From a bacterium BMS3Abin14 (GTDB lineage Bacteria; BMS3Abin14): DNA of 27,258 nt. Made by a program: the position numbers and the translations under genes. The DNA lies in NCBI GenBank assembly GCA_002897695.1, contig BDTG01000042.1, forward strand, positions 1 through 27,258. Reading direction: 5' to 3'. The stretch's first letter is position 1, and each line of letters begins with the position of its first letter. The notes beneath the pieces are model-generated. The model saw only the letters and a list, made by a program, of their open reading frames with translations. It did no database searches and was not told where the DNA came from. This document shows, piece by piece, positions 5,419 through 26,998 of this stretch.

Positions 5419-5459
5419 AACTAAACCCCAATCCTACTTGGCACCGAATTTTCTTTTGA

Positions 5460-5472: not shown

Positions 5473-5489
5473 TCAACAGCATCCCCGGA

Positions 5490-5505
5490 TGGCACATACA
5501 TTGCC
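5490..5505 (+). promoter_or_regulatory. Sigma-54 (RpoN) -24/-12 promoter of the tad/flp operon
   Basis: TGGCAC-N5-TTGCC, with GG at 5491-5492 and GC at 5503-5504 separated by exactly ten bases, matches the sigma-54 consensus. The predicted start is near 5516, leaving a leader of about 30 bases before the flp ATG (5546). This implies activator-dependent control of pilus expression. Confidence 0.82.
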
Positions 5506-5545
5506 CTATGTGTATGCAACCTGTGAACGACGAAAGGAGGAGAAG

Positions 5546-5797: not shown

Positions 5798-5814
5798 GAG
5801 TGGTTACCGGTCTG

Positions 5815-8221: not shown

Positions 8222-8233
8222 ATGGAGGCAGGA

Positions 8234-8905
8234 ATGAAACGCAGAACAACCATCATTATCATTTCGGGCATGATCGGCATCCTGGTCGGGACCGGGTACA
8301 TGATGAAAATCCAGGCTATCAGGAACCGGATCACCGGCATCCAGGAAACCGTTCAGGTCCTCACCACGAGAAACCCCCTCTCCATCGGAGACACGCTGAG
8401 CGGGGAGAACCTTTCGGCAACCGGGTTCCCCAAAGCTCATCTTCCAAAACGGGCGATCCTCGCGGCCGACATGGAGCTTATCAACGGCAGGACCCTCATT
8501 CATCCTGTCCCGCAGGGAGACCCGATTCTCTGGACGGATCTGCCCGAGGGGCCCAGGATCCACTACCCTACGGAAAGGATCCCGTCCGGGCTCCGTGCCA
8601 TGGCTCTTCCCGCCGGCGAGGTCCAGACCCTGGCGCATCTGCTTTCGCCGGGAGACAGGGTCGACATGTTGTGGACCCGCTTCGTGGACGGGTCGGCTCA
8701 ACCCACCAGCGTCATTTTAGGGGAATCGGTTCCCATACTTGCCGTGGGCAATTGGATTCGCCCGGAAAGACCGGACCGGTTGGGGGATGATTTCCCCTCC
8801 TCCATCACCCTGATGGTCGACCGGAAACTGGCGCTGAAGGTTGCTTCAGCCATGCAAAACGGCCAGATAACGCTCATCGCCAGGACGCGGGGAGACTACC
8901 GATGA
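8234..8905 (+). CDS. cpaB: Flp pilus assembly protein CpaB/RcpC
   Basis: 223 residues from ATG 8234, chosen because GGAGG (8224-8228) is five bases upstream; an ATG at 8222 would precede this site. An N-terminal membrane anchor (IIIISGMIGILVGTGYMM) is followed by a SAF-like region (about residues 40-110: LSIGDTLSGENLSATGFPK, LINGRTLIHPVPQGDPI) and a C-terminal domain with the family's LSPGDRVDMLW and SITLMVDRKLALKVASAMQNGQITL segments. CpaB works in the periplasm with the CpaC secretin in Tad pilus export. It overlaps cpaC by 4 bp. Confidence 0.93.
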   Translation: MKRRTTIIIISGMIGILVGTGYMMKIQAIRNRITGIQETVQVLTTRNPLSIGDTLSGENLSATGFPKAHLPKRAILAADMELINGRTLIHPVPQGDPILWTDLPEGPRIHYPTERIPSGLRAMALPAGEVQTLAHLLSPGDRVDMLWTRFVDGSAQPTSVILGESVPILAVGNWIRPERPDRLGDDFPSSITLMVDRKLALKVASAMQNGQITLIARTRGDYR

Positions 8906-10143: not shown

Positions 10144-10155
10144 TGAGAGGAGAAA

Positions 10156-10470
10156 ATGATGAAAAGATCAATAACCGGAAAGAAAGTTTTCACCGTCGCC
10201 CTTCTGTTGCTGGCCTTCATGGCGGTCCTCGCCGCACCCACGGTCGTCTCAGCTGCGTCCCAGGATGGTTCAAGGCTTAATATCAACACCGCTTCCGTGG
10301 AACAGTTTACCGCGCTTCCGGGCCTCGGGACCATCAAGGCCCAATCCATCGTAGATTTCAGAACGGAGCACGGTCCATTTGCCTCCGTTGATGACCTCAT
10401 CCTGGTGTCGGGCATCGGGAACAAACTTGTGAACAGGGTCAGGGAATTGGTCACAGCCAATTCGAATTAA
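10156..10470 (+). CDS. ComEA-like helix-hairpin-helix protein
   Basis: 104 residues; GAGAGGAG lies just upstream of ATG 10156. A signal peptide or N-terminal anchor (about residues 10-33, ending VVSAAS) is followed by the ComEA helix-hairpin-helix pair: LNINTASVEQFTALPGLGTI, then IVDFRTEHGPFASVDDLILV and SGIGNKLVNRVRELV. ComEA binds double-stranded DNA outside the cytoplasm during natural transformation; some such proteins have other roles. It is placed inside the Tad operon, 12 bp after cpaC and 54 bp before the FHA-CpaF gene, so it is probably co-expressed with the pilus. Confidence 0.9.
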   Translation: MMKRSITGKKVFTVALLLLAFMAVLAAPTVVSAASQDGSRLNINTASVEQFTALPGLGTIKAQSIVDFRTEHGPFASVDDLILVSGIGNKLVNRVRELVTANSN

Positions 10471-10524
10471 ACATGCATTGGGGGGGCAGGGGTTTCCCTG
10501 TCCCCCTCGGGCGGAGGAGCCGAA

Positions 10525-12123
10525 ATGAACCTTATTGCCACCTTTCAGACACCCATGGAGGAGAACAGAATAATACGGATCACCGGAGATCGGGTCGAGA
10601 TTGGACGAGATTCCGAATCGGACATATGTCTGGACCACCCCTCGGTATCGAGAAAACACGCCTGCATCAGCATCGTGGAGGGCAAGTCCTTCTTTTCCCT
10701 TAAAGATCGTGGAAGCGCCAACGGAACGTACGTGGACGGCATGATGATTGACGATGCGGAAATTCTCCACGGCGACCAGGAGGTGAGGATCGGTCCATTC
10801 CGCTTTCGGATATGCCATTCGCCGGAGACATCCATTCCCGGGGAAGAGAGGATGCCTGCCGAGGGTTTGACGCGTGAAAACGAGAGGGAAATAATGATGG
10901 AGGCCATAAATTCTCTCCCGAAAATACTTGACTCCGAGACCGGAAAGGACGGGGGCGATGACAGGGAACTGGCCTCGCGCGCGGAGAAGCATCTCTATCC
11001 CCGGATTCTTGGACTCCTCCCACCTCACGCCGATCCGAAAATGGCGGATGACCTGACAAAAAAAGCCCTGACGCACGCCATGGGTCTCGGTCCGCTCCAC
11101 GACTGGTTGAATGATCCTTCCATAGACGAGATCATGGTGAACGGCCTGGAAGGCGTCTACCTGGAAAGTGGGGGGAAACTCACCAGAAGGGACCCTGTTT
11201 TCTCCGATGAACATTCATTGATGCGGGTCATAGACCGCATCCTCGCTCCGTTGGGACGCAGGGTGGATGAATCCACACCATACATGGACGGCAGGCTCCC
11301 CGACGGCTCCCGGATCAACGTCATCATCCCCCCCGTTTCACTCATGGGCCCCGTTCTCACCATAAGGAAATTCCCGGCCGAGAGGCTTGACATTGAAAAG
11401 CTGGTTGAGTTGGGATCACTGACGCAGGATGCGACGGAGATGCTCGCGTCGGCGGTACACTCCAGGACGAACATCCTGATTTCCGGAGGGACCGGGACCG
11501 GCAAGACCACCCTGCTCAATTGCCTTGCCTCCTTCATTCCGGAAGACGAACGCATTATCACCATAGAGGACACGGCCGAACTGGACCTGCACCAGGACCA
11601 CGTTATCCGGTTGGAGACACGCCCCCCCAACGTGGAGGGCCTGGGGGAAATACCAGCCAGGGATCTCGTAAAGAACAGCCTTCGCATGAGGCCCGACAGG
11701 ATCATCGTGGGTGAATGCCGGGGAGGTGAGGCCATGGATATGCTCCAGGCCATGAATACCGGCCATGACGGGTCTATGACCACGTGCCACGCCAACTCCC
11801 CGCGTGACGCCCTCAAAAGGATCGAGATAATGGCCATGATGGCCGGGCTGGACATCCCCTACCGCGCCATCCGGGAGCAGGTCACATCCGCTATCCAGCT
11901 GGTCATTCAGATCAGCAGGTCCCCGGAAGGACGGAGAATTGTGAGCAGCATAACCGAGGTGGACCGTCTCGAGGGCGATCAGATCCTTACTCAGGACATT
12001 TTTACATTCCGCAAGGACAGTGGATCCAACGAACTGCGGCCGACAGGTATGATCCCCTCTTTTTCCCCACAAAAGGACCGGAAACGCGCATCCTTTGAGG
12101 TGGCAGGGAGGATTATCAAGTGA
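10525..12123 (+). CDS. cpaF: FHA domain-CpaF/TadA secretion ATPase fusion
   Basis: 532 residues; GGAGGAG precedes ATG 10525. Residues about 18-95 form an FHA domain (VEIGRDSESDICL, SVSRKHA, DRGSANGTYVDG; Arg28, Ser42, His45, Asn66), a phosphothreonine-recognition fold. From about 150 the CpaF/TadA family follows: DPSIDEIMVNGLEGVYLE, then DGRLPDGSRINVIIPP, Walker A GGTGTGKTT (Lys327), and the Walker B/Glu region RIIVGECRGGEAMDMLQAM followed by GHDGSMTTCHANSP. CpaF is the hexameric motor that powers Flp pilus assembly on the cytoplasmic face. It overlaps tadB by 4 bp. Normal CpaF proteins lack an FHA domain; the fusion is known in some lineages and suggests control or docking through FHA contacts. 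Confidence 0.96.
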   Translation: MNLIATFQTPMEENRIIRITGDRVEIGRDSESDICLDHPSVSRKHACISIVEGKSFFSLKDRGSANGTYVDGMMIDDAEILHGDQEVRIGPFRFRICHSPETSIPGEERMPAEGLTRENEREIMMEAINSLPKILDSETGKDGGDDRELASRAEKHLYPRILGLLPPHADPKMADDLTKKALTHAMGLGPLHDWLNDPSIDEIMVNGLEGVYLESGGKLTRRDPVFSDEHSLMRVIDRILAPLGRRVDESTPYMDGRLPDGSRINVIIPPVSLMGPVLTIRKFPAERLDIEKLVELGSLTQDATEMLASAVHSRTNILISGGTGTGKTTLLNCLASFIPEDERIITIEDTAELDLHQDHVIRLETRPPNVEGLGEIPARDLVKNSLRMRPDRIIVGECRGGEAMDMLQAMNTGHDGSMTTCHANSPRDALKRIEIMAMMAGLDIPYRAIREQVTSAIQLVIQISRSPEGRRIVSSITEVDRLEGDQILTQDIFTFRKDSGSNELRPTGMIPSFSPQKDRKRASFEVAGRIIK

Positions 12124-12785
12124 CCGCTGCCGACCTTGCCGTCTCCATGATATGCGGTATCTCAGTGGGCATCCCGGCGGCCATGCTCTTTGCCGGGATC
12201 AGACCGAGGGAAAAGGGTGATAAACGTTTCAGTCATCTCGGGGAAAAGCGGCTGGAACGCAGGCTTCCTGAGACGCTTGAACGGATAGCCTCAGGCCTTT
12301 CCGCGGGGCATAGCCTCCAGCAGTCCCTGGAAACCGTGACACGGCCGGCAGACCACCCTCTGGCCCCCATCTTCTCCCAGGTCCTTACCCGGATGAAGGC
12401 CGGACAATCCCTGGATGATGCCCTGGTAAATGTCGCAGGGCTCTTTGGACGACGATCAATTCCCCTCGTACTGCACAGCATGGCAAGCGCCCACCGGTCG
12501 GGTTCCAATCTCGTTGAGTCCTTACATCTTCTGGCCAGGATCTCCCGGGACAGAGAGGCGCTGCGCGGGAAAATCGCCGCCATGTCCGCCCAGGGCCGGC
12601 TCCAGGGGATAGTCCTGTGCCTGGTCCCGCTGCTCTTTCTCGCCGGGCTGTTCCTGGTCAGCCCGCAAAGCCTGTTTCCGGTCCTGCGAAGCCCCCTCGG
12701 CCGGAAAATTCTGCTGCTTTCCCTTGTGCTGCAGGGTTTCGGAGCCGCATTCATCTTCAGGATGGTTCATAAGGAGGTTTTCTGA
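12120..12785 (+). CDS. tadB: Tad pilus inner-membrane platform protein TadB
   Basis: 221 residues, GTG start overlapping the cpaF stop. An N-terminal hydrophobic segment (VSMICGISVGIPAAMLFAGI) is followed by a T2SSF-like helical domain (RRLPETLERIASGLSAGHSL, LVESLHLLARISRDREALRG) and two C-terminal membrane segments (about 155-175 and 190-210). This is the GspF-type platform with which the CpaF motor interacts. Shorter than typical TadB, which often has an extra N-terminal stretch. It overlaps tadC by one base. Confidence 0.9.
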   Translation: MTAADLAVSMICGISVGIPAAMLFAGIRPREKGDKRFSHLGEKRLERRLPETLERIASGLSAGHSLQQSLETVTRPADHPLAPIFSQVLTRMKAGQSLDDALVNVAGLFGRRSIPLVLHSMASAHRSGSNLVESLHLLARISRDREALRGKIAAMSAQGRLQGIVLCLVPLLFLAGLFLVSPQSLFPVLRSPLGRKILLLSLVLQGFGAAFIFRMVHKEVF

Positions 12786-13471
12786 TGCATCCTCAGGATA
12801 TAATGGCCGCAATCGCCGTGGCCGCCGGGGCAGGCACACTCGCTTTCATCGTCCCCAGGGCAAAAAACCGCCTGTTCGCGGCAATTCTGACGGTATTCCT
12901 GGCCGCGGCAATCGTATGGTCCCTCCCCCGCGGCAAGGCCACCCTTTTATTCATCCTGCCTATAGCATTCCTCCTGTATTTTGCCATCGGAAGATCGCGC
13001 AGGCATCGCAGAAGGGAGCTGCTCCGGCGGGACCTGCCGACCATGCTCGATTCTCTTGTCCTGGGTGTCGAGGCCGGCCACGCATTGATACCTGCCCTCA
13101 TGGGCAGCGCTGAAATCCTGGGCGAAAAAAGCCCACTGACCGCCGAGATCAACCGGCTCAAACATGACGTTGAACTGGGGGCGTCCCACCCGGAGGCTAT
13201 CGACAGGATGAGGGAACGCCTGGGACTGTCCACGGCTGACGCGGCCCTGGGGGCTATCTCACAGGCGCTCTTACTGGGAACCCCCATTGGGCGGACGCTC
13301 AAGGAACAGTCGGGCAGGATCAGGGAAAGCCTTATCCTGGAGGGGGAACAGTTCGCGAACACACTCTCCGTAAAGCTTCTGATCCCCCTGCTTCTCTTCA
13401 TCTTTCCCGCGTCTTTTCTCGTCATCCTCAGTCCCATAATTGTAACCCTGATAGGGGGACAGCCATGGTAG
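12785..13471 (+). CDS. tadC: Tad pilus inner-membrane platform protein TadC
   Basis: 228 residues, ATG start overlapping the tadB stop by one base. Two N-terminal hydrophobic segments (about 5-25 and 30-70), then a T2SSF domain (LLRRDLPTMLDSLVLGVEAG, EINRLKHDVELGASHPEAID, LGAISQALLLGTPIGRTLKE) and a C-terminal membrane helix (LLIPLLLFIFPASFLVILSP). TadB and TadC are paralogous platform subunits. It overlaps the DUF192 gene by 7 bp. Confidence 0.92.
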   Translation: MHPQDIMAAIAVAAGAGTLAFIVPRAKNRLFAAILTVFLAAAIVWSLPRGKATLLFILPIAFLLYFAIGRSRRHRRRELLRRDLPTMLDSLVLGVEAGHALIPALMGSAEILGEKSPLTAEINRLKHDVELGASHPEAIDRMRERLGLSTADAALGAISQALLLGTPIGRTLKEQSGRIRESLILEGEQFANTLSVKLLIPLLLFIFPASFLVILSPIIVTLIGGQPW

Positions 13472-15578: not shown

Positions 15579-15678
15579 TGTCATTGCGAGCATAAGAAGG
15601 AGACATTCCTTACTCTTCCTCCCCCTTGAGGGGGGAGGACCAGAGGTGGGGGTGAAAGGTTTGAGTGACGCGGCAATC
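15579..15678 (+). repeat. 100-bp inverted repeat, left copy
   Basis: This segment (TGTCATTGCGAGCATAAGAA... to CGGCAATC) recurs in reverse orientation at 23179-23278 with a single difference (G at 15670). It contains a GC-rich core that can fold on itself, CCTCCCCCTTGAGGGGGGAGG, and a CATTGCGAG...GCGGCAATC frame like the element at 5150. The remaining bases to 15727 (ATCGCTTCGCAAAG, CTCGCGATGACA) complete that element. No coding pattern. Confidence 0.9.
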
Positions 15679-15797: not shown

Positions 15798-16385
15798 CTA
15801 GTTATCCGGGCACGACCGGTCCCTTATGATCTCCAGGAGCCTTTTTTTTGCACGGAAGATCCTTACCTTGACCAGGTTCAGGCTGATCCCGAGAACATCC
15901 GCGATCTCCCGGTAGGAAAGGTCCTGAAAATAGCAGAGGATAATGGCGGTCCTGTATTTCTCCGGCAGGAGGGCGATGGATTCCTCCATAAACATCCTCT
16001 CCTCCATCTGTATGGATATGTGGGATGGGTCCTTCAGGTGGAGAGCGCCGTCATCCCTGACGATAGCGCCGGGGGGAACTTCATCCATGGACACGGTTTT
16101 CCCCCTTTTCATCCTGCGGTATTCGTCGATGCAGATGTTTTTGGCAATGCTGTATATCCATGTAGAGAACTTCTTCCTGGGATCATACCGCTTGATAAAC
16201 CGAAATACCCTCAGGAACGTCTCCTGGGTGAGTTCCGCAGCCAGGTCCTCGTTCCTGAAAAACTGATATGTGAAGTTGAATATCCTGTTCTGGTAGGCAG
16301 ACACCAGCTCTGTGAAGGCGTCCCTGTCGCCCTTTTGAATCCTTACCGCAAGGTCGCTGTCATTTATATCCGGAGCAGATAACAC
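15798..16385 (-). CDS. ECF-type RNA polymerase sigma factor
   Basis: 195 residues, GTG start with AGGGAA seven bases upstream. Region 2 (about residues 20-90) has ELVSAYQNRIFNFTYQFFRN, DLAAELTQETFLRVFRFI and KFSTWIYSIAKNICIDEYRR; region 4 (about 135-185) has ALLPEKYRTAIILCYFQDLS and YREIADVLGISLNLVKVRIF. It is an RpoE-like group IV sigma factor that would direct RNA polymerase to a small gene set. It lies only 9 bp after the 14-heme cytochrome gene and is the last gene of that operon. No anti-sigma factor gene is visible nearby, so how it is held inactive is unclear; self-regulation of the operon is inferred. Confidence 0.95.
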   Translation of the reverse strand: MLSAPDINDSDLAVRIQKGDRDAFTELVSAYQNRIFNFTYQFFRNEDLAAELTQETFLRVFRFIKRYDPRKKFSTWIYSIAKNICIDEYRRMKRGKTVSMDEVPPGAIVRDDGALHLKDPSHISIQMEERMFMEESIALLPEKYRTAIILCYFQDLSYREIADVLGISLNLVKVRIFRAKKRLLEIIRDRSCPDN

Positions 16386-16394: not shown

Positions 16395-18389
16395 CTAATA
16401 CTCAGCGGCCGGATGACACGAGTTACACAATGCCGTGTATTCAATCTTCGGGTGAATAGCCTGCGGGGCCGTATTTGTTCCCCGGGCAATTTTCAACATG
16501 TAAACCCCTCCCGGCAAAGCAGCCCCGTGAGGTAAATGACAGGACTGGCAGTTTATCAGGTTGTTCATGGTATATGAAGCGGAAGTCTCGCCGGGCATGA
16601 GATGATCCGAGTAGATAGTGGAGAATTTGGCCGTGTCGGCGTCAAGCAGAGGATGCGTTGCGCCCCCTCCAACCGTGGCAGGGGCCTCGCCGTGGCATCC
16701 AGTGCAAAGATACTCCTCAGAGTAGCCCGGGGCCCACTCAACATCCTCCCCGGCCGGGGCAAGCAGATAGTGGGAAAGCTGCTCGGCCCCATCCAGGATC
16801 GGCCCGATATCGTGGCACGAAAGACAGGTTACTACGCCTGGAAGTTCGCCTTCACCACCATAATAGGAATATTTCAGGCTGGCAGGCCACTGGTCCCGTT
16901 TGAGCGGCGGGTCGCCAACATCATACGTGGAAGGCAGAGTGGGATCTCCCATGAAATGGCTGACTCCCAAGCGGTGGCAACCGGCACACAACATGGTTCC
17001 CTTGTCTACAAGGATGGGAATGTAATCCACCTCTTTGCGGCGGTACCCGGCGTTGTGGGCCCTGTGGCAAAGGCCGCAGTACACCGTACCCGGCTGCAAC
17101 TGACTACCGTAGATAAAACCCAGGTTCGAATTCCCCAGTGGGATGGCGATCGTCGACCCGGCCAGGGAACTTTTGTCCCACTCATTGTAACCGTGATGTC
17201 CCTCCGGCGGCAGGCGGTGACATATCTCACAGAAGGAGTTTATGCCTGAGTCATTGCGGATCGTGTCGCTTATTTTCACCAGGCCCGGGGAGTAAGCCAG
17301 CCCATCATGGGCAGTGTGACATGTGGTGCACAGGATCCTCGGCTGATCCGTGTCGGGGTCCGGCGATCCCCAGACATACCCCTCCAGTTCCACCGTGTCG
17401 GCGATGGCAACAATGGAACCCGGTCCGTTGGACAGGTCATCATCCTCCGGGTGATATGTCCGCCCTGTCACCGTTCCCCCGGGATTGGGAAAGGGCGGGG
17501 TCTTCTCACCGTCCCCTCTCTCTCCCCGGTGGCATCCCTCGCAAAATTCATCGGACACGCTTCGCACGGGATCTACCGCCAGGAGACTATCCACCGGGCC
17601 TTTTTTATCCCTGCCATGGATGGCATGGCATGTCCAACACTCAATCTTGCCCTGACTGCCATAGCCGAGGTGACCGCCCAGCATCCAGTGTACCCCGCTC
17701 GCTCCGCGTCCATTGGCGGCAGGATAGTTCAGGGGAAAGGCGACCTTAAATCCCTGTTGAACGGATATGGGGCTCGCTCCACCGATCTTGTCGTACGGCT
17801 CCACGGAAACGGGATGATCGCCGGTCCTGTTCTCGGGACCGGCCCCCACGGCCTTCCGGCCTCTGTGGCATCTTTCGCACAGCCCCAGTAGCGGAACGCG
17901 CAGGAAGGGGCGGTTGGCCTCGTTGTGGGGGTCATGGCAGGTGGTGCAGTTCATCGCCCCGCCAGACAAATTGGGCAGCCCCGTGTTCGTTAAAAAGGTG
18001 TCGATCGTCGCCATATTGGGGTCCAGGCCATGGCTGTCCGGGTGAAAAACGGTCAATCCCGCGTCCACATTTCGGTCCATTATGGAAACGCCATCGTGGC
18101 AGGAAGAGCAGGTAATGCCCACGGTCCCGAGGGTTCTCAGGGAGGGTGGGACGGCACGCCAGATGAGAGGCCTGTCATCGGATGAGACAAAGTGGCAAAA
18201 GTCGCACTGCGGGTTGGTTTTGAGTTTGTCCCCACTGGTGGAAAGATAGCCCTGTCCGAACAGGTCATGAGGGGAACCGATGACGGCTCCAACCCCCCGA
18301 TCCGCAGTCATCAGGATTATCAATACAACGAGAAGCCCTCGGAGGACGGGACCCGGGGAATGCCTCGTTATCATAACCCTGCCGGACAT
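16395..18389 (-). CDS. 14-heme c-type cytochrome
   Basis: 664 residues. A long basic leader and hydrophobic stretch (VLRGLLVVLIILMTA) form a signal peptide. Fourteen CXXCH heme attachment motifs are visible, from CDFCH at residue 62 to CNSCH at residue 655, in order: CDFCH, CSSCH, CTTCH, CERCH, CWTCH, CEGCH, CTTCH, CEICH, CGLCH, CAGCH, CLSCH, CTGCH, CQSCH, CNSCH. The spacing is irregular and resembles 'doubled CXXCH' periplasmic or outer-surface cytochromes. It should carry electrons outside the cytoplasm. The ATG overlaps the NHL gene stop (TGATG) and has a weak ribosome site, so it is probably translationally coupled; ATG 18374 is an alternative start. No porin gene is present beside it, so a complete porin-cytochrome conduit is not shown. 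Confidence 0.93.
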   Translation of the reverse strand: MSGRVMITRHSPGPVLRGLLVVLIILMTADRGVGAVIGSPHDLFGQGYLSTSGDKLKTNPQCDFCHFVSSDDRPLIWRAVPPSLRTLGTVGITCSSCHDGVSIMDRNVDAGLTVFHPDSHGLDPNMATIDTFLTNTGLPNLSGGAMNCTTCHDPHNEANRPFLRVPLLGLCERCHRGRKAVGAGPENRTGDHPVSVEPYDKIGGASPISVQQGFKVAFPLNYPAANGRGASGVHWMLGGHLGYGSQGKIECWTCHAIHGRDKKGPVDSLLAVDPVRSVSDEFCEGCHRGERGDGEKTPPFPNPGGTVTGRTYHPEDDDLSNGPGSIVAIADTVELEGYVWGSPDPDTDQPRILCTTCHTAHDGLAYSPGLVKISDTIRNDSGINSFCEICHRLPPEGHHGYNEWDKSSLAGSTIAIPLGNSNLGFIYGSQLQPGTVYCGLCHRAHNAGYRRKEVDYIPILVDKGTMLCAGCHRLGVSHFMGDPTLPSTYDVGDPPLKRDQWPASLKYSYYGGEGELPGVVTCLSCHDIGPILDGAEQLSHYLLAPAGEDVEWAPGYSEEYLCTGCHGEAPATVGGGATHPLLDADTAKFSTIYSDHLMPGETSASYTMNNLINCQSCHLPHGAALPGGVYMLKIARGTNTAPQAIHPKIEYTALCNSCHPAAEY

Positions 18390-20053
18390 CAGGGTGAAAC
18401 CCGCATTGTCGGCACTTTTCTCACCTGTACCCTGCGTGCCAGCTTTTCACAGATAACAAGCCGGTCAGGGGGCGCCAATACGATTCCGTTGGGAGATCCG
18501 ACGTCGAGGGGTAGTCCGTTCTCGTTTCCCAGAAGCGCCACAAAGGTACCATCAGGCCTGAAAACCTGGATGGCGTTGAGATAGGAATCCGCAACGTAGA
18601 TGACACCCTTTTTGTCCCGGGCAATGCCCTTGGGACGGATGAACTGGCCGATACCTAATCCGGTCTCTCCGATTATCCGCTCGGGCTTACCAGACAGCCG
18701 CATGATCTGAAGACGGGAATTGAGGGTGTCGGACACGATCAATCGGTCAGGACCTGATACTGTCAGAAAGGTCGGATACTGCATCAGGCCGGGTTCATAT
18801 CCTCTCCCCCCCAGGATATTCACGAGCTTGTTGTTCCTGTCCAGGACGTAGATCCAGCCATTGGGGTTGTCGGTCACCAGAAGGGCGCCGTCCGATCCGA
18901 TGGCGATATCCACCAGACCGAACCTGAAATGAGGAAAACGTTTGTTGAAATCATCCCCAAAATAATCCTTGACCATCCCCAGGAGGGTTATCCTCCTGTC
19001 AAAATACCCGTTGGGATTGAAGACTACGATTTCTCCACGGTAGGCATCCACCGCGTAGACTTTCCCGTCAGCGTCGATAGCGATGCCCATCAGGCGGTCG
19101 AACTCCCAGGGAGAGTTCCCTGTTCCTCCAAGGCGGTTCTGTACCTCGTCCCGGCTGCCGATAATGATGATCTCACCGGTGCCGGAATCCGAAACGTAGA
19201 TCTGATCCGTATCCTTCCTGTAATCGACATCCACGGGGCTGACGAAGCCGTAATCCTCCCAACCGTACATCTTGATCAGTTCGGTGCGGCTCACCACCTC
19301 TTCCAGGGTTTTTATTCCCTGAAAGGGGCCCTTAGCCCTTGAGCCGGCCCCGCGGGCCTTAAAGAGAACCCGCAGTACGGCGCTCCGGGCCGACTCCTTG
19401 AGAGTCCTGCTGAAGGCCGTTAATACATACTGATAGATTTCCCCCGGGATCACGTCGTGGTCAAGATAACTGGTGTCGACAGAGCTGTAGACAAGACTGA
19501 AATTTTCATCGCCTTTCCGTTTTCTGTAAAGGTTATACGCCAGGACTGAACGGGGAGCGCCGTGGGACCATGTGAGAGCGAGGCCATCCGGTCTGATCTG
19601 ATGGGCCGCCCATTCCGGTGGTTGGACAGACTCCAGCGCCTGGGATACAATACGGAAATAGCGCACCTCTGAAGGAGGGCCGGGCCGCTCCTGCTTGTCC
19701 AATGGAATTATCTGGTAATAGTAGTTCAGGTTGGCTTTGACATTGGAGTCATCGTAAACAGGGTTTTTGCTTCTTCTGATTTCATTGAAATGGCCCTGAT
19801 CTCCATCTCTTCTCATGACCACATACCGGACAGCGCCCTGAACCCTGAACCACCTCAGGTTTACGAGGTGCTCCTCCTGGTAGATACCGATCCACCGTGG
19901 CGGAGAGAGGGAAACTTCGCCATCGGTCGGCAGTGCCTGGGATGTCGAACCGACAACCACCGCCATCAGGACGGCAGGCAGGAAAAGCATCCTGGCCCAC
20001 GGAAAAAGGCAGTGGAATTTTCCGGATTCGCGCTCCTTGTTCCGAACCTTCAA
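18389..20053 (-). CDS. Exported FN3-NHL beta-propeller protein
   Basis: 554 residues, TTG start at 20053 with GGAGGGA just upstream. A signal peptide (about residues 20-40, ending near SQALP) is followed by two fibronectin type III-like domains (about 50-130, with VNLRWFRVQGAVRYVVMRRD; and about 145-230, with LALTWSHGAPRSVLAYNLYR) and a six-bladed NHL/6-bladed propeller (about 265-550), whose blades contain repeats such as PVDVDYRKDTDQIYVSDSGT, GIAIDADGKVYAVDAYRGE and GIARDKKGVIYVADSYLNAI. Proteins of this type often sit beside multiheme cytochromes in metal-reducing bacteria and may act as an extracellular scaffold; no enzymatic residues were identified. It is the first gene of the operon with the 14-heme cytochrome and the ECF sigma factor. 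Confidence 0.9.
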   Translation of the reverse strand: MKVRNKERESGKFHCLFPWARMLFLPAVLMAVVVGSTSQALPTDGEVSLSPPRWIGIYQEEHLVNLRWFRVQGAVRYVVMRRDGDQGHFNEIRRSKNPVYDDSNVKANLNYYYQIIPLDKQERPGPPSEVRYFRIVSQALESVQPPEWAAHQIRPDGLALTWSHGAPRSVLAYNLYRKRKGDENFSLVYSSVDTSYLDHDVIPGEIYQYVLTAFSRTLKESARSAVLRVLFKARGAGSRAKGPFQGIKTLEEVVSRTELIKMYGWEDYGFVSPVDVDYRKDTDQIYVSDSGTGEIIIIGSRDEVQNRLGGTGNSPWEFDRLMGIAIDADGKVYAVDAYRGEIVVFNPNGYFDRRITLLGMVKDYFGDDFNKRFPHFRFGLVDIAIGSDGALLVTDNPNGWIYVLDRNNKLVNILGGRGYEPGLMQYPTFLTVSGPDRLIVSDTLNSRLQIMRLSGKPERIIGETGLGIGQFIRPKGIARDKKGVIYVADSYLNAIQVFRPDGTFVALLGNENGLPLDVGSPNGIVLAPPDRLVICEKLARRVQVRKVPTMRVSP

Positions 20054-20465: not shown

Positions 20466-21026
20466 ATGGGTTTTCCCATGAAACTCAGGGCGTTGGTCGT
20501 ACGTATAACCCTTACCCTCGCAGCATCCCTCATATCACTGGCGCTTGTCACAGCCGCTATTTCTCCTGATGTGGCGATGGGGGCCTCCATCAGGGAAGGA
20601 GACGTAGCCCCGCTTTTCATCGGGGTGGATCTTCAAGGGGTTTCCCATAACCTCCAGGATCACATCGGCAAAGACGTAATCATGCTGGACTTCTGGTCCA
20701 TCTACTGCGTTTCCTGCGTTCAGGAGATGCCCAAACTGGTGGCGCTTCACAAAAAATACAAGGACCAGGGTTTCGTGGCATTCGGGATAGACCTCGATTC
20801 TTTCAGCGTCCGGCGCGTAAAGCGGTTTGTCAACGGTCTCAATTACGATGTCTCTTATCCCATTATCGTGGACCGTAAAAGAGAGATCGCCGGCGCCTAC
20901 AAGGTGAGTATGCTGCCGACAACCATTTTCATCGGGAAGGACGGCAAAGTGAAACTCTTTCACATCGGTTACAAACCCGGCAACGAAGACGAGTTTGATG
21001 ACCTGATTGAAAAACTGATAAAATGA
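20466..21026 (+). CDS. TlpA/ResA-like thiol-disulfide protein (CVSC)
   Basis: 186 residues; GGAGG is about nine bases upstream of ATG 20466 (ATG 20478 is an alternative). A signal peptide or anchor (about residues 8-40) precedes a thioredoxin fold: VIMLDFWSIYCVSCVQEMPK with the active site at 81-84, and the conserved cis-proline loop SMLPTTIFIGKDG. TlpA/ResA proteins reduce disulfides in the periplasm, often for cytochrome c maturation or cysteine protection. The active-site pair CVSC differs from the usual CEPC/CGPC. It is 16 bp upstream of a second TlpA-like gene, so they are co-transcribed, and it is divergent from the NHL operon. Confidence 0.9.
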   Translation: MGFPMKLRALVVRITLTLAASLISLALVTAAISPDVAMGASIREGDVAPLFIGVDLQGVSHNLQDHIGKDVIMLDFWSIYCVSCVQEMPKLVALHKKYKDQGFVAFGIDLDSFSVRRVKRFVNGLNYDVSYPIIVDRKREIAGAYKVSMLPTTIFIGKDGKVKLFHIGYKPGNEDEFDDLIEKLIK

Positions 21027-21042
21027 ACAAGGTGTTTTGAAA

Positions 21043-21624
21043 ATGATGAAAAAGATTCACCCGGCGATTGGGATATACTTTTCCCCGGCGATTCTTACAG
21101 TGCTGTTTCTCGCCCTTTTACTTGGCGGCGTGGCCTTCGCATCCGAAGCGACCGACAAAGTTGCCGAAAACCGGATTCTGAAGATAGGAACTCAAGCGCC
21201 GGATTTCGAAATCCAGACCATCGATGGAAAACCCTACCAACTCCGGGAGCACCTCGGTCAAAAACCGATCCTTCTCTTTTTCTGGTCGTTCTTCTGCGGT
21301 CCATGCAGGGAGGAGATGCCCTCTTTTCAGAATATCTACTCTGAAGTTGGAAAGGACCGCATGGAATTTGTCGGGATAAACCTTGACGGAAAGGGTTTGA
21401 GTAAAGCCATCAATAAGTTCCTGGCGAGTTCAAAAATGGAGTTTGTGCCCCTTTTCGATGAACTGATAGGGATCAACTACAAGGTAGCCGACCCCTACGG
21501 AATCGCCGGAACGCCAACCGTCTACGTTATCGACCTGCAGGGAAAGATCGCGTTCTCCGGAGTGGGCAGGGTCGAGCCGGACGAGTTGAAAAAGGTCCTG
21601 GAAGGTATCCTGGCGGGAAGCTGA
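21043..21624 (+). CDS. TlpA/ResA-like thiol-disulfide protein (CGPC)
   Basis: 193 residues from ATG 21043; AAGG lies about ten bases upstream. TTG 21037 is an in-frame alternative. An N-terminal hydrophobic segment (AILTVLFLALLLGGVAFAS) is a signal peptide or anchor. The fold shows GTQAPDFEIQTIDGKPYQLR, then the active-site region ILLFFWSFFCGPCREEMPSF with CGPC at about residues 85-88, and the cis-proline loop GIAGTPTVYVID. It is downstream of and probably co-transcribed with the CVSC protein; the two could work in series in the periplasm. Its end faces the converging cytochrome gene across a 324-bp gap. Confidence 0.92.
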   Translation: MMKKIHPAIGIYFSPAILTVLFLALLLGGVAFASEATDKVAENRILKIGTQAPDFEIQTIDGKPYQLREHLGQKPILLFFWSFFCGPCREEMPSFQNIYSEVGKDRMEFVGINLDGKGLSKAINKFLASSKMEFVPLFDELIGINYKVADPYGIAGTPTVYVIDLQGKIAFSGVGRVEPDELKKVLEGILAGS

Positions 21625-21647
21625 AAACAACCCCCTTTTGTCTCACG

Positions 21648-21749
21648 CCCGTTCGTCACGCCTACGGACGACAGTAGCATCCCCCCTCCCTTGAGGGGAG
21701 GGGCTGGGGGAGGGTGCATGTTTCCCCCCTCACCTCGGTCCTCTCCCCC
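21648..21749 (+). repeat. Direct repeat, left copy (89 bp identical)
   Basis: CCCGTTCGTCACGCCTACGG... through to TTTCCCCCCTCACCTC (21648-21736) is identical over 89 bases to 24009-24097 in the same orientation, and similarity continues (GTCCTCTCCCCC) with one difference. The core CCTCCCTTGAGGGGAGG is self-complementary. Part of a repeat family in this window; non-coding. Confidence 0.9.
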
Positions 21750-21780
21750 GGCGGGGAGAAGAATTTCTCCGAAATCAGGT

Positions 21781-21840
21781 ATTGAGGCCTTTCAGGCGGA
21801 GATGAAAGCTTGCTTTTATCTCCGCCTGAAAGATCTCAAT
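21781..21840. other. 60-bp near-perfect hairpin between convergent genes
   Basis: The left arm CTTTCAGGCGGAGATGAAAGC (21789-21809) pairs with the right arm 21812-21832 with one G-U wobble and a two-base TT loop; outside it ATTGAG (21781-21786) pairs with CTCAAT (21835-21840), separated by two bases that give one wobble and one mismatch. It lies between the stop codons of the TlpA gene ending at 21624 and the cytochrome gene ending at 21949. It might be a bidirectional transcription barrier or a mobile-element end, but lacks flanking T-runs. Confidence 0.8.
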
Positions 21841-21948
21841 GGTTCAGGTGACGGGATACGCCTTCCTTTGCGAGCTTTGCGACTTTGCGTGAGACGAATT
21901 GGAATTTGCAGAATGAGGTTCACATTATTGAAACGAACCTGATTTTGG

Positions 21949-23163
21949 TTATTTGGGTGCTTTAATGGATTTGATCCCGGCGTTGATCCACGCCTCATCC
22001 TTGTCCCCATGGCACCGGGCGCAGGCCTGGGGAACGGTCAGATTTTCCTTTATTGAAACCTCATTGATGTTGAAGTTGTGGGAGTCGGCAGGTGCTTCCT
22101 GCCCGTTCATGTCCGAGTCGTGACATTCGATACAGGGCATGGGAGGGCGGCTGAAATCGAACTTGTGGTCATGGATGCTGTAGCGCTTGCCACCGTCCGT
22201 TACAGTCGGCACGTGGCAGTCCACGCATTCGGCCTGGGCCTCAGTATGCATGGAGTGCTTCTCGTAGGCCGGATAGATCTTCCGGTGGCAGGTGCCGCAG
22301 TATTCGCTCCTCGACATCATTCGATGCTCGGTGACGGTAATCCCCCTGTCGAAACCGCATACATCGCACGCCCGATCTGTCGCATAGAACTTTGTCTGCC
22401 AATACATGAACATCCTGTGACGCTCCTTGTACGACATGTCACCCCAGTACCAACCCTTTGATTTGGGCTTGGGCATGAAGAAGTCCGTATAGTAATCCGT
22501 CAGGTCATCACCGGGCTTAAAACCCACAGGGAATGGAAATTTCTGGGTCTTCTTATCCTTGCCGTCGGTGTGACACGCTTCGCAGATCATGTCCCGGCGC
22601 TCTTTGTCCAATTTTGCCGGGTTAACGATCAATGCCGGGTCTCCGCCTGCCTCAACGTGTTTGTCCCCCGGGCCATGGCACGCCTCGCAGGCGATGGATT
22701 CCTCCGCGTAAGAGCGTGTTTGCTGGTCAAATCCGACAGCGTGACAGCCGTTGCATGTAATGGGGTACGGGTTCTGCTTCCAGTTCCAGATAGAATAGGG
22801 TTCCCACTTGGCCTCGGCTATGTTCCAGTATTTGGGAAGTACGTAGAACTGCCCCCCCAGAAGGGTGAGGTATTTCTGAATCCAGTGACTCCCGATGGTG
22901 AAGTAGATATCGCTCTTCTTGAAAGGGATGTCCGGTCCGAAGTTCGTGGCTTCAATCGCACCAGGGTCCTTTAAGGCGTTGCGGAGCATTCTGGCGTGGG
23001 GAGTTTTTTTCCACTGGTTATAGATCTCCTCATGGCACTTCCTGCACTCAGTGGAAGTGACATACCCCTCCATCCCGGCCGCCATGGAAAACACAGGAAA
23101 AAAATACTGTGAAAAAAAGAGAATAAAAAACAGGCTCAACAGGACCTTACGATTCAGAACCAC
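21949..23163 (-). CDS. 8-heme c554-like cytochrome c
   Basis: 404 residues, GTG start at 23163 with GAGGGG six bases upstream. Signal peptide (about 5-29). Eight CXXCH motifs: residues 40-44, 137-141, 159-163, 194-198, 289-293, 313-317, 344-348 and 381-385. The opening TSTECRKCHEEIYNQWKKTP resembles the cytochrome c554/c-prime family. A ninth cysteine pair, CDVCG at 266-270, lacks the heme histidine. The mid region (for example CEACHGPGDKHVEAGGDP) is shared with the 7-heme cytochrome at 24201, so the two are paralogs. It follows a TlpA-like gene, with a dispersed repeat in between, suggesting an electron-transfer module served by the thioredoxin. Partner and acceptor are unknown. Confidence 0.93.
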   Translation of the reverse strand: MVLNRKVLLSLFFILFFSQYFFPVFSMAAGMEGYVTSTECRKCHEEIYNQWKKTPHARMLRNALKDPGAIEATNFGPDIPFKKSDIYFTIGSHWIQKYLTLLGGQFYVLPKYWNIAEAKWEPYSIWNWKQNPYPITCNGCHAVGFDQQTRSYAEESIACEACHGPGDKHVEAGGDPALIVNPAKLDKERRDMICEACHTDGKDKKTQKFPFPVGFKPGDDLTDYYTDFFMPKPKSKGWYWGDMSYKERHRMFMYWQTKFYATDRACDVCGFDRGITVTEHRMMSRSEYCGTCHRKIYPAYEKHSMHTEAQAECVDCHVPTVTDGGKRYSIHDHKFDFSRPPMPCIECHDSDMNGQEAPADSHNFNINEVSIKENLTVPQACARCHGDKDEAWINAGIKSIKAPK

Positions 23164-23178
23164 AACATCCCCTCGTTA

Positions 23179-23278
23179 GATTGCCGTGTCACTCAAACCT
23201 TTCACCCCCACCTCTGGTCCTCCCCCCTCAAGGGGGAGGAAGAGTAAGGAATGTCTCCTTCTTATGCTCGCAATGACA
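23179..23278 (-). repeat. 100-bp inverted repeat, right copy
   Basis: Reverse complement of 15579-15678 with one difference. It fills most of the 151-bp space between the TlpA gene (ends 23315) and the cytochrome start (23163), so it may separate or regulate the two genes. Confidence 0.9.
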
Positions 23279-23314
23279 AGCGCGGCTTCCCATGAAATTG
23301 GCTATGCCAATAAC

Positions 23315-23872
23315 CTACCTGGGTACCTCCAGCACGAGATCATCAAGGACAAAGGGCACCTCGTTCTCGCCGGGAGGATAGTCCCCGACATGGGAGTATT
23401 TAACAGTGCCGTCTACGCCGATGATAACTTTCAGGGGTATGGGCCCGGCAAGACCATAGATCTTGGTGGCCACTTTCAGGTCACTGTCAATGAGTACCGG
23501 GTATGGCATCCCCTTTTCCTTGGCCATTTTTCTGACCTGCTTGTCATCCCCGGTCTCCAACGCAATGGCGAGGAGTTCAAAACCCCTATCCTTGTACTCG
23601 TTATAATCCTTGATCAGGGTAGGGATCTCCTTCTTGCAGATGTTGCACCACGTCGCCCAGAACTCCAGCATCACGACCTTCTTTCCAAAGTAACTGGATA
23701 GCGTGATCTCCTTCCCATCGAGGGACTTCAGGGTAAAGTCCGGGGCCTTCTGGCCGATCTTGACCTTCATGGCCGTACTCTGGGCCTCCGACACCCCTTG
23801 AAAACACAGGGTGATGTTGGGAACAACCATGAATAATACCAGTACAACGAAAAGCATCTTTCTTCTCTTCAT
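23315..23872 (-). CDS. TlpA/ResA-like thiol-disulfide protein (CNIC)
   Basis: 185 residues, ATG start. Signal peptide or anchor (about 6-30), then KIGQKAPDFTLKSLDGKEIT, the active-site region VVMLEFWATWCNICKKEIPT (CNIC at 76-79) and a proline-containing loop (GLAGPIPLKVIIGVDG). A periplasmic redox protein of the TlpA/ResA type. The CNIC active site is unusual. It lies upstream of the 8-heme cytochrome on the same strand; the gap holds a dispersed repeat. Confidence 0.92.
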   Translation of the reverse strand: MKRRKMLFVVLVLFMVVPNITLCFQGVSEAQSTAMKVKIGQKAPDFTLKSLDGKEITLSSYFGKKVVMLEFWATWCNICKKEIPTLIKDYNEYKDRGFELLAIALETGDDKQVRKMAKEKGMPYPVLIDSDLKVATKIYGLAGPIPLKVIIGVDGTVKYSHVGDYPPGENEVPFVLDDLVLEVPR

Positions 23873-24008
23873 TTCAAACCCCCTGCGCGGTTCATAACTC
23901 CTCCATACCTCCCGGCAGAACCCTGCCGATTCTTTCTTTCATACTTTTAGTGATCCACGTTCTCTTCTTCCACCGTAGCCAGGTGGCCTTAAACTTCTTA
24001 TCTCACCA

Positions 24009-24110
24009 CCCGTTCGTCACGCCTACGGACGACAGTAGCATCCCCCCTCCCTTGAGGGGAGGGGCTGGGGGAGGGTGCATGTTTCCCCCCTCACCTCAGT
24101 CCTCTCCCCC
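24009..24110 (+). repeat. Direct repeat, right copy (89 bp identical)
   Basis: Identical to 21648-21736 over 24009-24097 and similar up to 24110. It lies in the 328-bp gap 23873-24200, which contains no gene; the adjacent CCTCTCCCCC-T-GGGGGAGAGG can form a hairpin, and CGATACC-type short repeats follow at about 24160-24190. The pair flanks the TlpA-CNIC/8-heme cytochrome module. Confidence 0.9.
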
Positions 24111-24200
24111 TGGGGGAGAGGAAGAATATGGTGATAGGCGGCCATTTGGTGCCCCACCTCGACACATCGAGACCTCGATACCTCGATACCTTCTACGCCC

Positions 24201-25397
24201 CTAGTGACCCACAAAAACGGGCTTTTTCCAGCTATTGATCAGATCCAGCGCCCAGTTCTCCGCGTCCGGTTTATCTGTATGACATTTTGCGCATGCCTTC
24301 TGAATCCGGGGGTCGTAGCAGTTCTGCGTGTGGACCAGAAAGTAACTGTATGAATGGATGTTCCCCGAAAGTCCCTTGTTCAGATCCTTACCCCGCTTGA
24401 CGTGGCAATCGTTGCAGACCAGCTTTACCGTGTTGGGATGACGGGTATGGAGCGGCATTTTTGCCCTGAAATCATGACAGCTGAAACAAAAATCCATGGT
24501 GTCCGGATCTTTCTTTCCGTCGGTCTTCTGTCCGGTTATCCCGCAGACCTCACACTTGGCCCTGGAGGAGTTAGTCATCTTGTTCTCCCATTCCCCGTAA
24601 ATGCGGCTTATGGCATCGTCTACCGATTCCCCCTCCTTCATCTCCAGGGGGATGTAATAATCCGCCAGGTCCTCTCCGGGCATGAACCCCACAGGGAAAT
24701 AATACTTCCCGGACTTGTCGGTCCCCCTGACGTGGCAGGAGGCGCATATCATGTTACCTCGCGCCTTATCCAGCTTTGAAGGGTTGATGATCTCTTTCGG
24801 ATCCCCACCGCCAGCCACATGAAGCTCCCCGGGCCCGTGGCACTCCTCGCAGGACACGCCTTCATCCGCGATGGTTCTCTTCTCCGGGTTGTAGTGGGTC
24901 GTATGGCACCCGGCGCAATATTTAGAGTATGGTTTCCTTTTCCAGGACCAGACCGAGTAGGGGCGCCACTCTTTGGACTGAACTGCCCACAATCGCGGGA
25001 GCACGTAGTACTCCTTGCCGATCTTTTTCATGTATCTCTGATCCCAATGCAATCCGATGGTATATTCAACCTCATCCCTGGTGAAGGGCAGGTCCTCCAA
25101 CGTGAAATCCGCAAGAATGGCGGAAGGATTCGCCCTGGCATCCTGGACCACGGTGCTGTGAAACGTTTCCTTCCAGCCGGCGTACTCATCCTCGTGGCAC
25201 CCGGCACAGGCCTTGGCGCCCAGATAATGGTTCCCACCGGGAGCATCGTGGGAGATAGTCATCCCGACATAGGTTTTGCCGCTCACGCTCCCGGCTGAAG
25301 GTTGATTATCCCCGGCCCCCAACGCACTCGCCGCACCGGCGACAGGCGCGGTTCCAAGCAGCAGACTCAGAAGAGCTATGGCAATCAGTCTAGACAT
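24201..25397 (-). CDS. 7-heme c554-like cytochrome c (paralog of the 8-heme protein)
   Basis: 398 residues from ATG 25397 (GAGGGG about nine bases upstream); an ATG at 25451 adds 18 residues before the signal peptide and is less likely. Signal peptide about 3-25. Seven CXXCH motifs at 64-68, 161-165, 183-187, 218-222, 304-308, 328-332 and 369-373. A non-heme pair CEVCG at 282-286 sits at the place matching CDVCG in the 8-heme paralog. Shared blocks such as CEECHGPGELHVAGGGDP, IINPSKLDK and FPVGFMPGEDLADYY show common descent. The eighth heme segment of the paralog is absent here. It follows the CGSC TlpA-like gene by 84 bp, giving a second TlpA-cytochrome module. Confidence 0.93.
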   Translation of the reverse strand: MSRLIAIALLSLLLGTAPVAGAASALGAGDNQPSAGSVSGKTYVGMTISHDAPGGNHYLGAKACAGCHEDEYAGWKETFHSTVVQDARANPSAILADFTLEDLPFTRDEVEYTIGLHWDQRYMKKIGKEYYVLPRLWAVQSKEWRPYSVWSWKRKPYSKYCAGCHTTHYNPEKRTIADEGVSCEECHGPGELHVAGGGDPKEIINPSKLDKARGNMICASCHVRGTDKSGKYYFPVGFMPGEDLADYYIPLEMKEGESVDDAISRIYGEWENKMTNSSRAKCEVCGITGQKTDGKKDPDTMDFCFSCHDFRAKMPLHTRHPNTVKLVCNDCHVKRGKDLNKGLSGNIHSYSYFLVHTQNCYDPRIQKACAKCHTDKPDAENWALDLINSWKKPVFVGH

Positions 25398-25481
25398 GAC
25401 TAATTCCCCTCGACCGTTACAATGCCCCATGCATATTGAAGGTTTTTTCACAGCGCCCCCTGAGCCAAAAGAAAGGGGAAA

Positions 25482-26066
25482 CTACTCCAATAGCTTCCCT
25501 AGCATCCTCCGGACTTTGCCCGAATCGGAATCGTTAAAACCTATTTTATAATATTGGACGATCCCTCCCCTGTCAACGATAACGGTTACAGGGATGAACC
25601 AACTTGTGAAAATCCTCGTTATTTCCAGATCAGGATCCACCAGGAGCGGATAGGAGATGGACAGCTGTTTCAGCCGCAGCCCCTCGCGTATCTCTCCGCT
25701 GTCAAGCTGCTCGGTGTTGACGGAAAATATAACGAGGCCCCGGTCACGGAAATCATGGTAGATGCTCTCAAGGGCCTTCATCTCCTCGATGCAGGAACCA
25801 CAGTTAAGGCCCCACAGCTCTATGAGGAGAACCTTGCCCCGCATGTCGGTGGAAGAAACTTTCTTCCCATCGACGGTAACCCCGGAAAAGTTTTTCAAGG
25901 GCTTGCCCACCGGGTCCTCACCGATGACGATCTCCGCCATTTTTTTCCTCTTAATATCCTCACCCGGATCGGCGTTGAGAATACCAGCTGCCGTCATCTG
26001 GAAAAAAACCGCCAGAAGCAGAAAACTGACTATAGGACTCCATGAACCACGGAGGAGACTTCTCAA
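25482..26066 (-). CDS. TlpA/ResA-like thiol-disulfide protein (CGSC)
   Basis: 194 residues from TTG 26066, which gives a compact signal peptide/anchor (SPIVSFLLLAVFFQMTAAGI). The frame is open to 26201, but that extra stretch runs into a dispersed repeat and has no ribosome site, so it is not used. The fold shows GVTVDGKKVSSTDMRGK, the active-site region VLLIELWGLNCGSCIEEMKA (CGSC at 89-92) and the loop SWFIPVTVIVDRGG. A periplasmic redox protein, probably with the 7-heme cytochrome downstream. Its start is less certain than those of its paralogs. Confidence 0.87.
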   Translation of the reverse strand: MRSLLRGSWSPIVSFLLLAVFFQMTAAGILNADPGEDIKRKKMAEIVIGEDPVGKPLKNFSGVTVDGKKVSSTDMRGKVLLIELWGLNCGSCIEEMKALESIYHDFRDRGLVIFSVNTEQLDSGEIREGLRLKQLSISYPLLVDPDLEITRIFTSWFIPVTVIVDRGGIVQYYKIGFNDSDSGKVRRMLGKLLE

Positions 26067-26148
26067 TTGTTTCCAACCTTCATGTTCGACGACCTCGTAA
26101 AGGACAAACCTTTTCACCACTGGAAATACGCGGAGAGAATCCCAAACC

Positions 26149-26191
26149 TTCCTCCCCCTTGAGGGGGGAGGACCAAAGGTGGGGGTGAAAG
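26149..26191 (+). repeat. Partial copy of the 15579-type repeat
   Basis: CTTCCTCCCCCTTGAGGGGG and GAGGACCAAAGGTGGGGGTG match the central part of 15579-15678, in the same orientation as that copy, with one substitution (CCAAAGG for CCAGAGG). It is in the 334-bp gap 26067-26400, which otherwise holds an AC-rich stretch with CTCTGTGxCCTCTGTGGCTC-like repeats and no gene. Confidence 0.75.
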
Positions 26192-26370
26192 AGCTGCTCA
26201 CCGCTAAAAAACCAATTCAACACAGGGTTGGTTACACAGGGCTTAAACCCAATCCCTCCTCTGTGCCCTCTGTGGCTCTGTGGTGGAATATCACGCTTTA
26301 GTGCCAAACGGCTACGCTGTAGTGAAATAATGTAAGTTACTACGCAGGCGGTAGTTTTGCGTTACAAAAA

Positions 26371-26390
26371 ATGCGGGCCTAAGCCCGCAT
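26371..26390 (-). terminator. Intrinsic terminator of the CQNC TlpA lipoprotein gene
   Basis: ATGCGGGC (26371-26378) pairs with GCCCGCAT (26383-26390) around CTAA. Read on the minus strand it is followed by six T residues (A-run at 26365-26370) and lies about 10 bp after the stop of the gene ending at 26401, so it should end that transcript before the next TlpA gene. Confidence 0.85.
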
Positions 26391-26400
26391 TTTCCCCAGT

Positions 26401-26943
26401 CTATTCGGCCAGGAGCTTTTCGATGAGCGCGATATACTCACCCTCGATCTCCGGGGTGTACCCCTCGTGGCGGAACCGAACGGTTCCATCTCTGGCAACG
26501 ATAATCGTCAGGGGCGCCGCCATCATCTGGAAAGCATCGACCACCTTGAACTCGGGATCAACGATCACGGGATAGGTAAACTTCACCGGAAGCTGCGGCA
26601 TGAATTTCTTGAGGGTCTTTCCGTCAACCCCATCTGTGTTGACGCCCAATATCACAAGGCCTTTGCTTCCGTACTTGTTGTTCAGCCGCTCGAGGAAAGG
26701 TATTTCCTCGATGCAGTTCTGACAGCGCAGCCCCCAGAAATTCACCAGGACCACCGATTTTCCCTGGTAGCCGGCAAGGCTCGTGCTGCCACCATCGATG
26801 TCCGTAAAAGTTGCGGAAGGGGCCTTGGGGAAACTGGATTCCTTAACCACGCCCGTTGAACCCGCGCATCCGGCTGCAACGACAGATAAGCCCAACAATC
26901 CAATGAGAGCCGCACACCTGATTCCCGCTCGATACCTTCCCAT
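26401..26943 (-). CDS. TlpA-like thioredoxin lipoprotein (CQNC)
   Basis: 180 residues from ATG 26943 (ATG 26946 directly before it is equally in frame); AAGGAGGG lies just upstream. A lipobox VVAAGC (Cys about residue 26) predicts a lipoprotein. The fold shows AGYQGKSVVLVNFWGLRCQN with the active site CQNC at about 74-77, EIPFLERLNNKYGSKGLVIL, and the cis-proline loop MMAAPLTIIVARDG. A membrane-anchored periplasmic thiol-disulfide protein. It has its own promoter-like sequence upstream and a terminator downstream, so it is transcribed separately from the CGSC protein. Confidence 0.92.
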   Translation of the reverse strand: MGRYRAGIRCAALIGLLGLSVVAAGCAGSTGVVKESSFPKAPSATFTDIDGGSTSLAGYQGKSVVLVNFWGLRCQNCIEEIPFLERLNNKYGSKGLVILGVNTDGVDGKTLKKFMPQLPVKFTYPVIVDPEFKVVDAFQMMAAPLTIIVARDGTVRFRHEGYTPEIEGEYIALIEKLLAE

Positions 26944-26998
26944 CATCCCTCCTTATAAAGATCCATCAGCTCGTGAAATATTTACCCAGCGACGCTCC

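Follow-up and report, generated by a model that had tools for sequence, protein, structure and literature searches.

Results

Arrangement of the genes

The window analysed here, i.e. the whole stretch of 27,258 nucleotides, is one entire contig (BDTG01000042.1) of the 2.28 Mb genome of the bacterium BMS3Abin14 (assembly GCA_002897695.1, 49 contigs, denoted G000 below). Five TlpA/ResA-like thioredoxins (T1 to T5) with the active sites CVSC, CGPC, CNIC, CGSC and CQNC are grouped in it around two multiheme cytochromes (CytA and CytB), as stated in a preliminary description of this DNA and corroborated by the open reading frames (ORFs) and Pfam.

The cytochrome block is located on the minus strand in the 5'→3' order T5, T4, CytB, T3, CytA. 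T5 (26401..26946; NFWGLRCQNC, cis-Pro loop AAPLT) exhibits a possible lipoprotein signal (AAGC in the window, LTGC in the related genome G004) and is followed by T4 (25482..26201; ELWGLNCGSC, cis-Pro loop FIPVT). CytB (24201..25451) contains seven CXXCH motifs and one CXXCG (CEVCG, residues 300–304, 24540..24554) and has lost heme 8. Then follow T3 (23315..23872; EFWATWCNIC, cis-Pro loop GPIPLK), the constant partner of the cytochromes, and CytA (21949..23163), a secreted OcwA-like cytochrome with eight CXXCH motifs and one CXXCG (site 5, CDVCG, residues 266–270, 22354..22368) at the position of the OcwA heme-5 motif. A TlpA gene thus leads into a cytochrome gene twice, as previously noted, with gaps of 30 bases (T4 to CytB) and 151 bases (T3 to CytA). 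T1 (20466..21026; DFWSIYCVSC, cis-Pro loop MLPTT) and T2 (21037..21624; FFWSFFCGPC, cis-Pro loop GTPT), both identified by ORF, Pfam and orthologues, form a separate plus-strand pair which is convergent with the cytochrome block. Orthologues with the same CVSC and CGPC sites are present in G001, G004, G005 and G008. Since the window is the whole contig, the region past T5 could be read from relatives only.

Conservation of the arrangement

The genome contains 13 TlpA-like places in its 2.28 Mb, so that for any one of them about 0.03 further places would be expected at a distance of up to 6.5 kb. With respect to this value and to the whole arrangement being kept in relatives, the cluster of five is beyond chance. 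The complete set (T1-T2 and T5-T4-CytB-T3-CytA) was found in four of the 12 genomes of the bacterial family (G000, G001, G004 and G005, in the last over two contigs) with identical dipeptides apart from CDIC for CNIC in G001. G002 keeps the core T4-CytB-T3-CytA, the T4 active site being masked there. Orthologues of T3, 66–88% identical across four relatives, occur in exactly five of the 12 genomes, the same five which carry CytA/CytB (chance 1/792), and were found in none of the remaining seven, several being incomplete.

When species genomes were scanned, 21 loci came up in metagenome-assembled genomes (MAGs) with the labels Deltaproteobacteria, Deferrisomatales, Poribacteria and Acidobacteria, and the core T5-(T4)-CytB-T3-(CytA) recurs in those labelled Deferrisomatales, Deltaproteobacteria and Poribacteria. 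The order outside the family is a T5-type gene, a T4-type gene or none, CytB and T3, with CytA adjacent or elsewhere. Counting the family loci, T3 follows CytB immediately in 14 of 16 assessable loci. Deviations concern L054, with the order T3-CytA-CytB, and L065, whose T3 is on another contig and not beside CytB; in L067 the stretch stops just past CytB. Of 17 further genomes to which the cytochromes led, 16 contain the T3 clade. As these 17 were picked for carrying the cytochromes, joint absence is demonstrated by the family comparison alone. The pairs of TlpA and cytochrome are hence conserved in family relatives and in MAGs of other groups, and the objection that they might not be conserved elsewhere, raised at the outset, falls away.

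The genes downstream in other genomes reveal no consistent partner from which a function could be derived: HEAT-repeat proteins follow T3 in L063 (9794-11521) and L066 (9674-11410), a GidA-family gene is found in L118 and L120 and a glycosyltransferase in L070.

The thioredoxin-like proteins

T1 to T5 all carry the CXXC motif and score above the Pfam cut-offs for AhpC-TSA and Redoxin. They belong to the broad TlpA/ResA group, outside the named ResA, DsbE and TlpA subfamilies at curated cut-offs. With ResA, CcmG (DsbE) and TlpA they share the TlpA-like fold family, signal peptides and the position of a glutamate, whereas their dipeptides are unusual and the cis-Pro loops of T3 to T5 differ (IPLK, IPVT, APLT). 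This glutamate, six residues past the first active-site cysteine, was observed in all stand-alone T1 to T5 and their orthologues; at that position it is conserved in CcmG, ResA and StoA, which provide reductant (PMC3961690).

In the maximum-likelihood tree T1 to T5 fall into distinct clades and, judging from their sequences, the five are old, separate lineages. The T3 clade (16 rows, support 100/98) consistently shows C[DN][IV]C, and the T3 motifs EFWATWC and GPIPLK are kept throughout the phylum labels sampled. T4/T5 relatives outside the family exhibit CGPC, CSPC, CAPC, CANC, CSAC, CAAC or CSSC, and the dipeptides of T1 and T2 relatives are likewise variable. Outside the family only the T3 dipeptide is constant, and this variation rules out the graded ladder of redox potentials of the preliminary description as a conserved trait.

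CytA and CytB

The two cytochromes are paralogues with about 36% identity. A profile of 34 sequences found its best sequence match in OcwA (E 2.6e-31, positions 26–369), the nonaheme cell-surface cytochrome of Thermincola (PDB 6I5B). The CytA model (mean predicted local distance difference test, pLDDT, of 79) also matched OcwA best (residues 29–338, Z 15.6, 2.8 Å over 206 residues), followed by a Carboxydothermus undecaheme protein (Z 12.9) and MccA (third, Z 7.0), and only low values were obtained for NrfA and c554 chains (Z 2.5–3.7). The fold comparison covered the CytA model, that of CytB being poor (pLDDT 67, predicted template modelling score 0.56). The match to the multiheme selenoprotein MccSep (9wt8) is limited to about 50 N-terminal positions. 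The likeness to cytochrome c554 assumed before holds for the N-terminal half, but a classification as c554 had to be rejected, because over the full length OcwA is the relative.

OcwA is composed of a c554-like four-heme part and an NrfA-like five-heme part, its heme 5 being situated at the catalytic place of NrfA (PMC6703420). There NrfA itself carries its heme 1, bound by CXXCK (PMC6703420, PMC12285233). CytA retains the order of the nine C-x-x-C sites of OcwA. In the profile alignment, however, site 5 of CytA/CytB lies opposite CLKCH of OcwA, and the residue after its CXXC is Gly, Glu or Gln in all 34 sequences, never His and, unlike in NrfA, not Lys; both cysteines are invariant, compared with a mean majority-residue frequency over columns of 0.57. 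With eight CXXCH motifs in CytA and seven in CytB, neither reaches the nine of OcwA-like cytochromes. The heme-8 motif lost in CytB leaves a single cysteine (NC[YW]D) which is kept in 17 of 17 CytB sequences. NrfA models gave 28 and 24 bits for CytA against cut-offs of 595 and 692, and the CX12-15CH site of MccA/SirA was not seen in CytA/CytB, the eight sites of CytA being plain CXXCH. CytA and CytB are relatives of OcwA and by their heme motifs neither NrfA nor MccA. OcwA has not been described with TlpA partners, in contrast to CytA/CytB.

Ten-heme relatives from the same bacterial family (L033:7485-8969, L034:6323-7777, L035:8009-9580) exhibit CXXCK at the site-5 position. In L034 and L035 a CRDC-type TlpA is found near this gene; the window genome has that TlpA without this cytochrome.

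The T1-T2 module and neighbouring genes

Divergent from T1-T2, a secreted NHL-repeat protein (18389..20053, minus strand) and a 14-heme paired-CXXCH cytochrome (16395..18389, minus strand) complete a second module. This module was observed in G000, G004, G005 and G008, where the stretch read comprises the NHL gene alone in G004 and the 14-heme cytochrome runs off the stretch in G005. G008 contains the module and lacks CytA/CytB. Since T1-T2 travels with the NHL protein and the 14-heme cytochrome, even where CytA/CytB are absent, the five TlpAs are not one unit, and this possibility was ruled out. In G001, which belongs to the same genus, T1-T2 is retained, the NHL gene is gone and all that is left of the 14-heme cytochrome is a remnant of 85 residues (L029:2359-2616). 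An extracytoplasmic function (ECF) sigma factor (15798..16385, minus strand) is located downstream of the 14-heme cytochrome, a place kept in G008 and G001.

A paralogous module consists of an NHL protein, a T2-like protein (CEPC) and a T1-like domain (CS[ST]C) fused to a ten-heme cytochrome, and is kept in G000, G001, G002, G004 and G008 (in the latter split over two ORFs). The fusion in the own genome (L081:7778-9388, contig C33) joins a T1-like TlpA (CSSC) to a ten-heme paired-CXXCH cytochrome, and Ser replaces Glu at +6 of its TlpA domain (CSSCVQS). By this fusion the T1 type is physically tied to multiheme cytochromes.

Palindromic G+C-rich interspersed repeats were found at 15600-15678, 21648-21755, 23179-23257, 24009-24116 and 26133-26191, mostly between genes; the repeat at 23179-23257 has 23 matching places in the genome. 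Since the first codons of T4 fall within one of these copies, its called start is doubtful and the true one probably lies inside the called ORF. Rfam gave no match anywhere in the window.

At the other end of the window the sensor part of a histidine kinase (2-1282) contains CXXCH (CGSCH), which is why it is possibly a heme-c sensor kinase; a PhnD-like binding protein (1351-2307) adjoins. Judged by translations, 5243-13471 resembles a Tad/Flp pilus locus (pilin, CpaB-, CpaC-, CpaF-, TadB- and TadC-like ORFs), within which a short helix-hairpin-helix ORF is found at 10156-10470.

Cytochrome maturation genes in the genome

Genes of the heme-lyase families (Ccm, Ccs) are present on the contigs C8, C10, C4, C19 and C13, and a separate CcmG-like TlpA is part of the Ccm locus. 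Because the cell possesses its own lyases and this CcmG-like protein elsewhere, the TlpA set of the window is additional to the housekeeping route. On contig C8 (L082:6259-13563) two TlpA-TPR proteins without active-site cysteines lie among five-heme and 13-heme cytochromes, beside CcsA and ResB; similar TlpA-TPR proteins occur near CytA in L056 and L057.

Discussion

The genes, their conserved association, the relationship to OcwA and the CXXC without His are established directly. Most likely, the TlpAs act as a dedicated cysteine-handling crew for the cytochromes and do not form a chance cluster. More specifically, and with moderate confidence, we regard the locus as encoding periplasmic thiol-disulfide reductants with the two OcwA-like multiheme cytochromes as their dedicated clients. 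Which way the electrons flow, which cysteines are the clients and what the system is for are inferred. T3, T4 and T5 would draw electrons from the cytoplasm, presumably via the single CcdA/DsbD-type membrane protein, and would hold the cysteines of apo-CytA and apo-CytB reduced, whereupon the Ccm and Ccs lyases of the cell could attach the seven or eight c-hemes. The extra CXXC at the former heme-5 site would be delivered in the right state, be it as thiols, as a metal or heme ligand or as a controlled disulfide. Reduction of the cytochrome cysteines would thus serve assembly or upkeep, and T1 and T2 may do the equivalent job for the neighbouring NHL and 14-heme cytochrome module.

Dedicated cysteine reduction is favoured because T1 to T5 keep the glutamate of the reductant providers and because there is a precedent: the octaheme SirA, a member of the MccA family, depends for its efficient maturation and normal amount on SirH, a TlpA/DsbE/ResA-type protein encoded in the sir cluster (PMC6976685). 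It is the one case of a TlpA with multiheme cytochromes which we found in the literature. NrfA and SirA, both with atypical sites, require extra maturation factors. The octaheme sulfite reductase MccA/SirA shares with our locus the cytochrome superfamily (Z 7), an atypical site and a TlpA-family protein in the cluster, which contains one such protein next to SirEFG, whereas several are present here. A description of the present layout was not found in the literature, subscription papers being largely outside the search.

The precedent renders the maturation of each cytochrome, as suggested in the preliminary description, plausible, but several observations do not fit easily. The cluster in the window contains no heme lyase, CcmH, CcmI-like gene or CcdA, unlike sirEFG or nrfEFG, and one single protein of the DsbD-TM/CcdA type was found genome-wide. 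No described maturation system needs so many reductants, up to five, for two clients. T1 to T5 all remained below the NCBIfam cut-offs for ResA (NF002854), DsbE (TIGR00385) and TlpA (NF047696), the highest ResA score being that of T3 (119 bits versus 170) with lower values for the other four. Furthermore, three genomes in which no CytB was found have T5-T3 as an isolated pair at a distance from CytA. Finally, the fusion of the T1-like domain with the decaheme cytochrome is accounted for more easily if the TlpA part keeps a function in the mature protein than if it served assembly.

A different explanation, which we consider rather unlikely although it ranks next, is a thiol-to-heme electron relay: the extra CXXC would be a redox-active dithiol/disulfide at one end of the heme chain with which T3 to T5 swap electrons, and CytA/CytB would consequently act as oxidants or reductants of the thiol pool in the periplasm. 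That the His-less CXXC is invariant in CytA as well as in CytB under several phylum-level labels is in line with this relay, and so is the T1-like TlpA fused to a ten-heme cytochrome in the own genome and in relatives, whose domain lacks the glutamate of the reductant providers. Beyond the family, on the other hand, T3 is the only supposed partner with a conserved dipeptide, and the model gives no usable geometry for the two cysteines (pLDDT of about 56–58 around site 5). A thioredoxin exchanging electrons with a heme chain in such a way was not found in our literature search, and we know of none described. In favour of the relay, the multiheme cytochrome MtrC is controlled by a redox-active pair of non-heme cysteines (PMC9973256); it differs from CytA/CytB by its fold and its CX8C spacing, and no TlpA partner of it is known. 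Only tentatively can it be proposed that, in several uncultured lineages, the dithiol/disulfide of CytA/CytB replaces the NrfA-type catalytic heme with T3 as its dedicated redox partner. Equally doubtful is the ensuing direct junction, at which a multiheme electron wire would meet the thiol-disulfide exchange of the periplasm and of which the TlpA-decaheme fusion would be the one-chain version.

Ordinary periplasmic thiol maintenance, in which the TlpAs serve many envelope proteins of a cytochrome-rich cell and the adjacency reflects co-duplicated envelope redox genes, seems improbable: although some others of the 13 TlpA-like places also lie beside cytochromes, T3 tracks CytA/CytB exactly within the family and every TlpA constitutes an old clade of its own with distinct neighbours.

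In MccA, Cu(I) is held by two cysteines near the active heme. The least probable explanation is a comparable metal site, e.g. for Cu(I), assembled at site 5 from its two cysteines and perhaps the invariant His331 of CytA after reduction of the cysteine pair by the TlpAs; it can draw on the TlpA of Bradyrhizobium, which reduces ScoI and the cysteine pair of CoxB before metallation (PMC6696091), and on the spacing of His331, 14 residues past the heme-7 motif and hence equivalent by spacing, not by profile alignment, to the His pair of the OcwA heme-5 pocket (13-14 past heme 7), but no Sco, PCuAC or copper gene was seen in the cluster and the resemblance of CytA to MccA is weak (Z 7).

If the TlpAs are indeed dedicated to these cytochromes, the locus illustrates the way in which bacteria cope with the very many cysteines that a multiheme protein with an altered catalytic heme site contains. 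If the extra CXXC should prove redox-active, thiols and heme wires, two electron currencies usually treated apart, would be linked by it. The conserved core of T3 with CytA/CytB represents a small, testable gene set.

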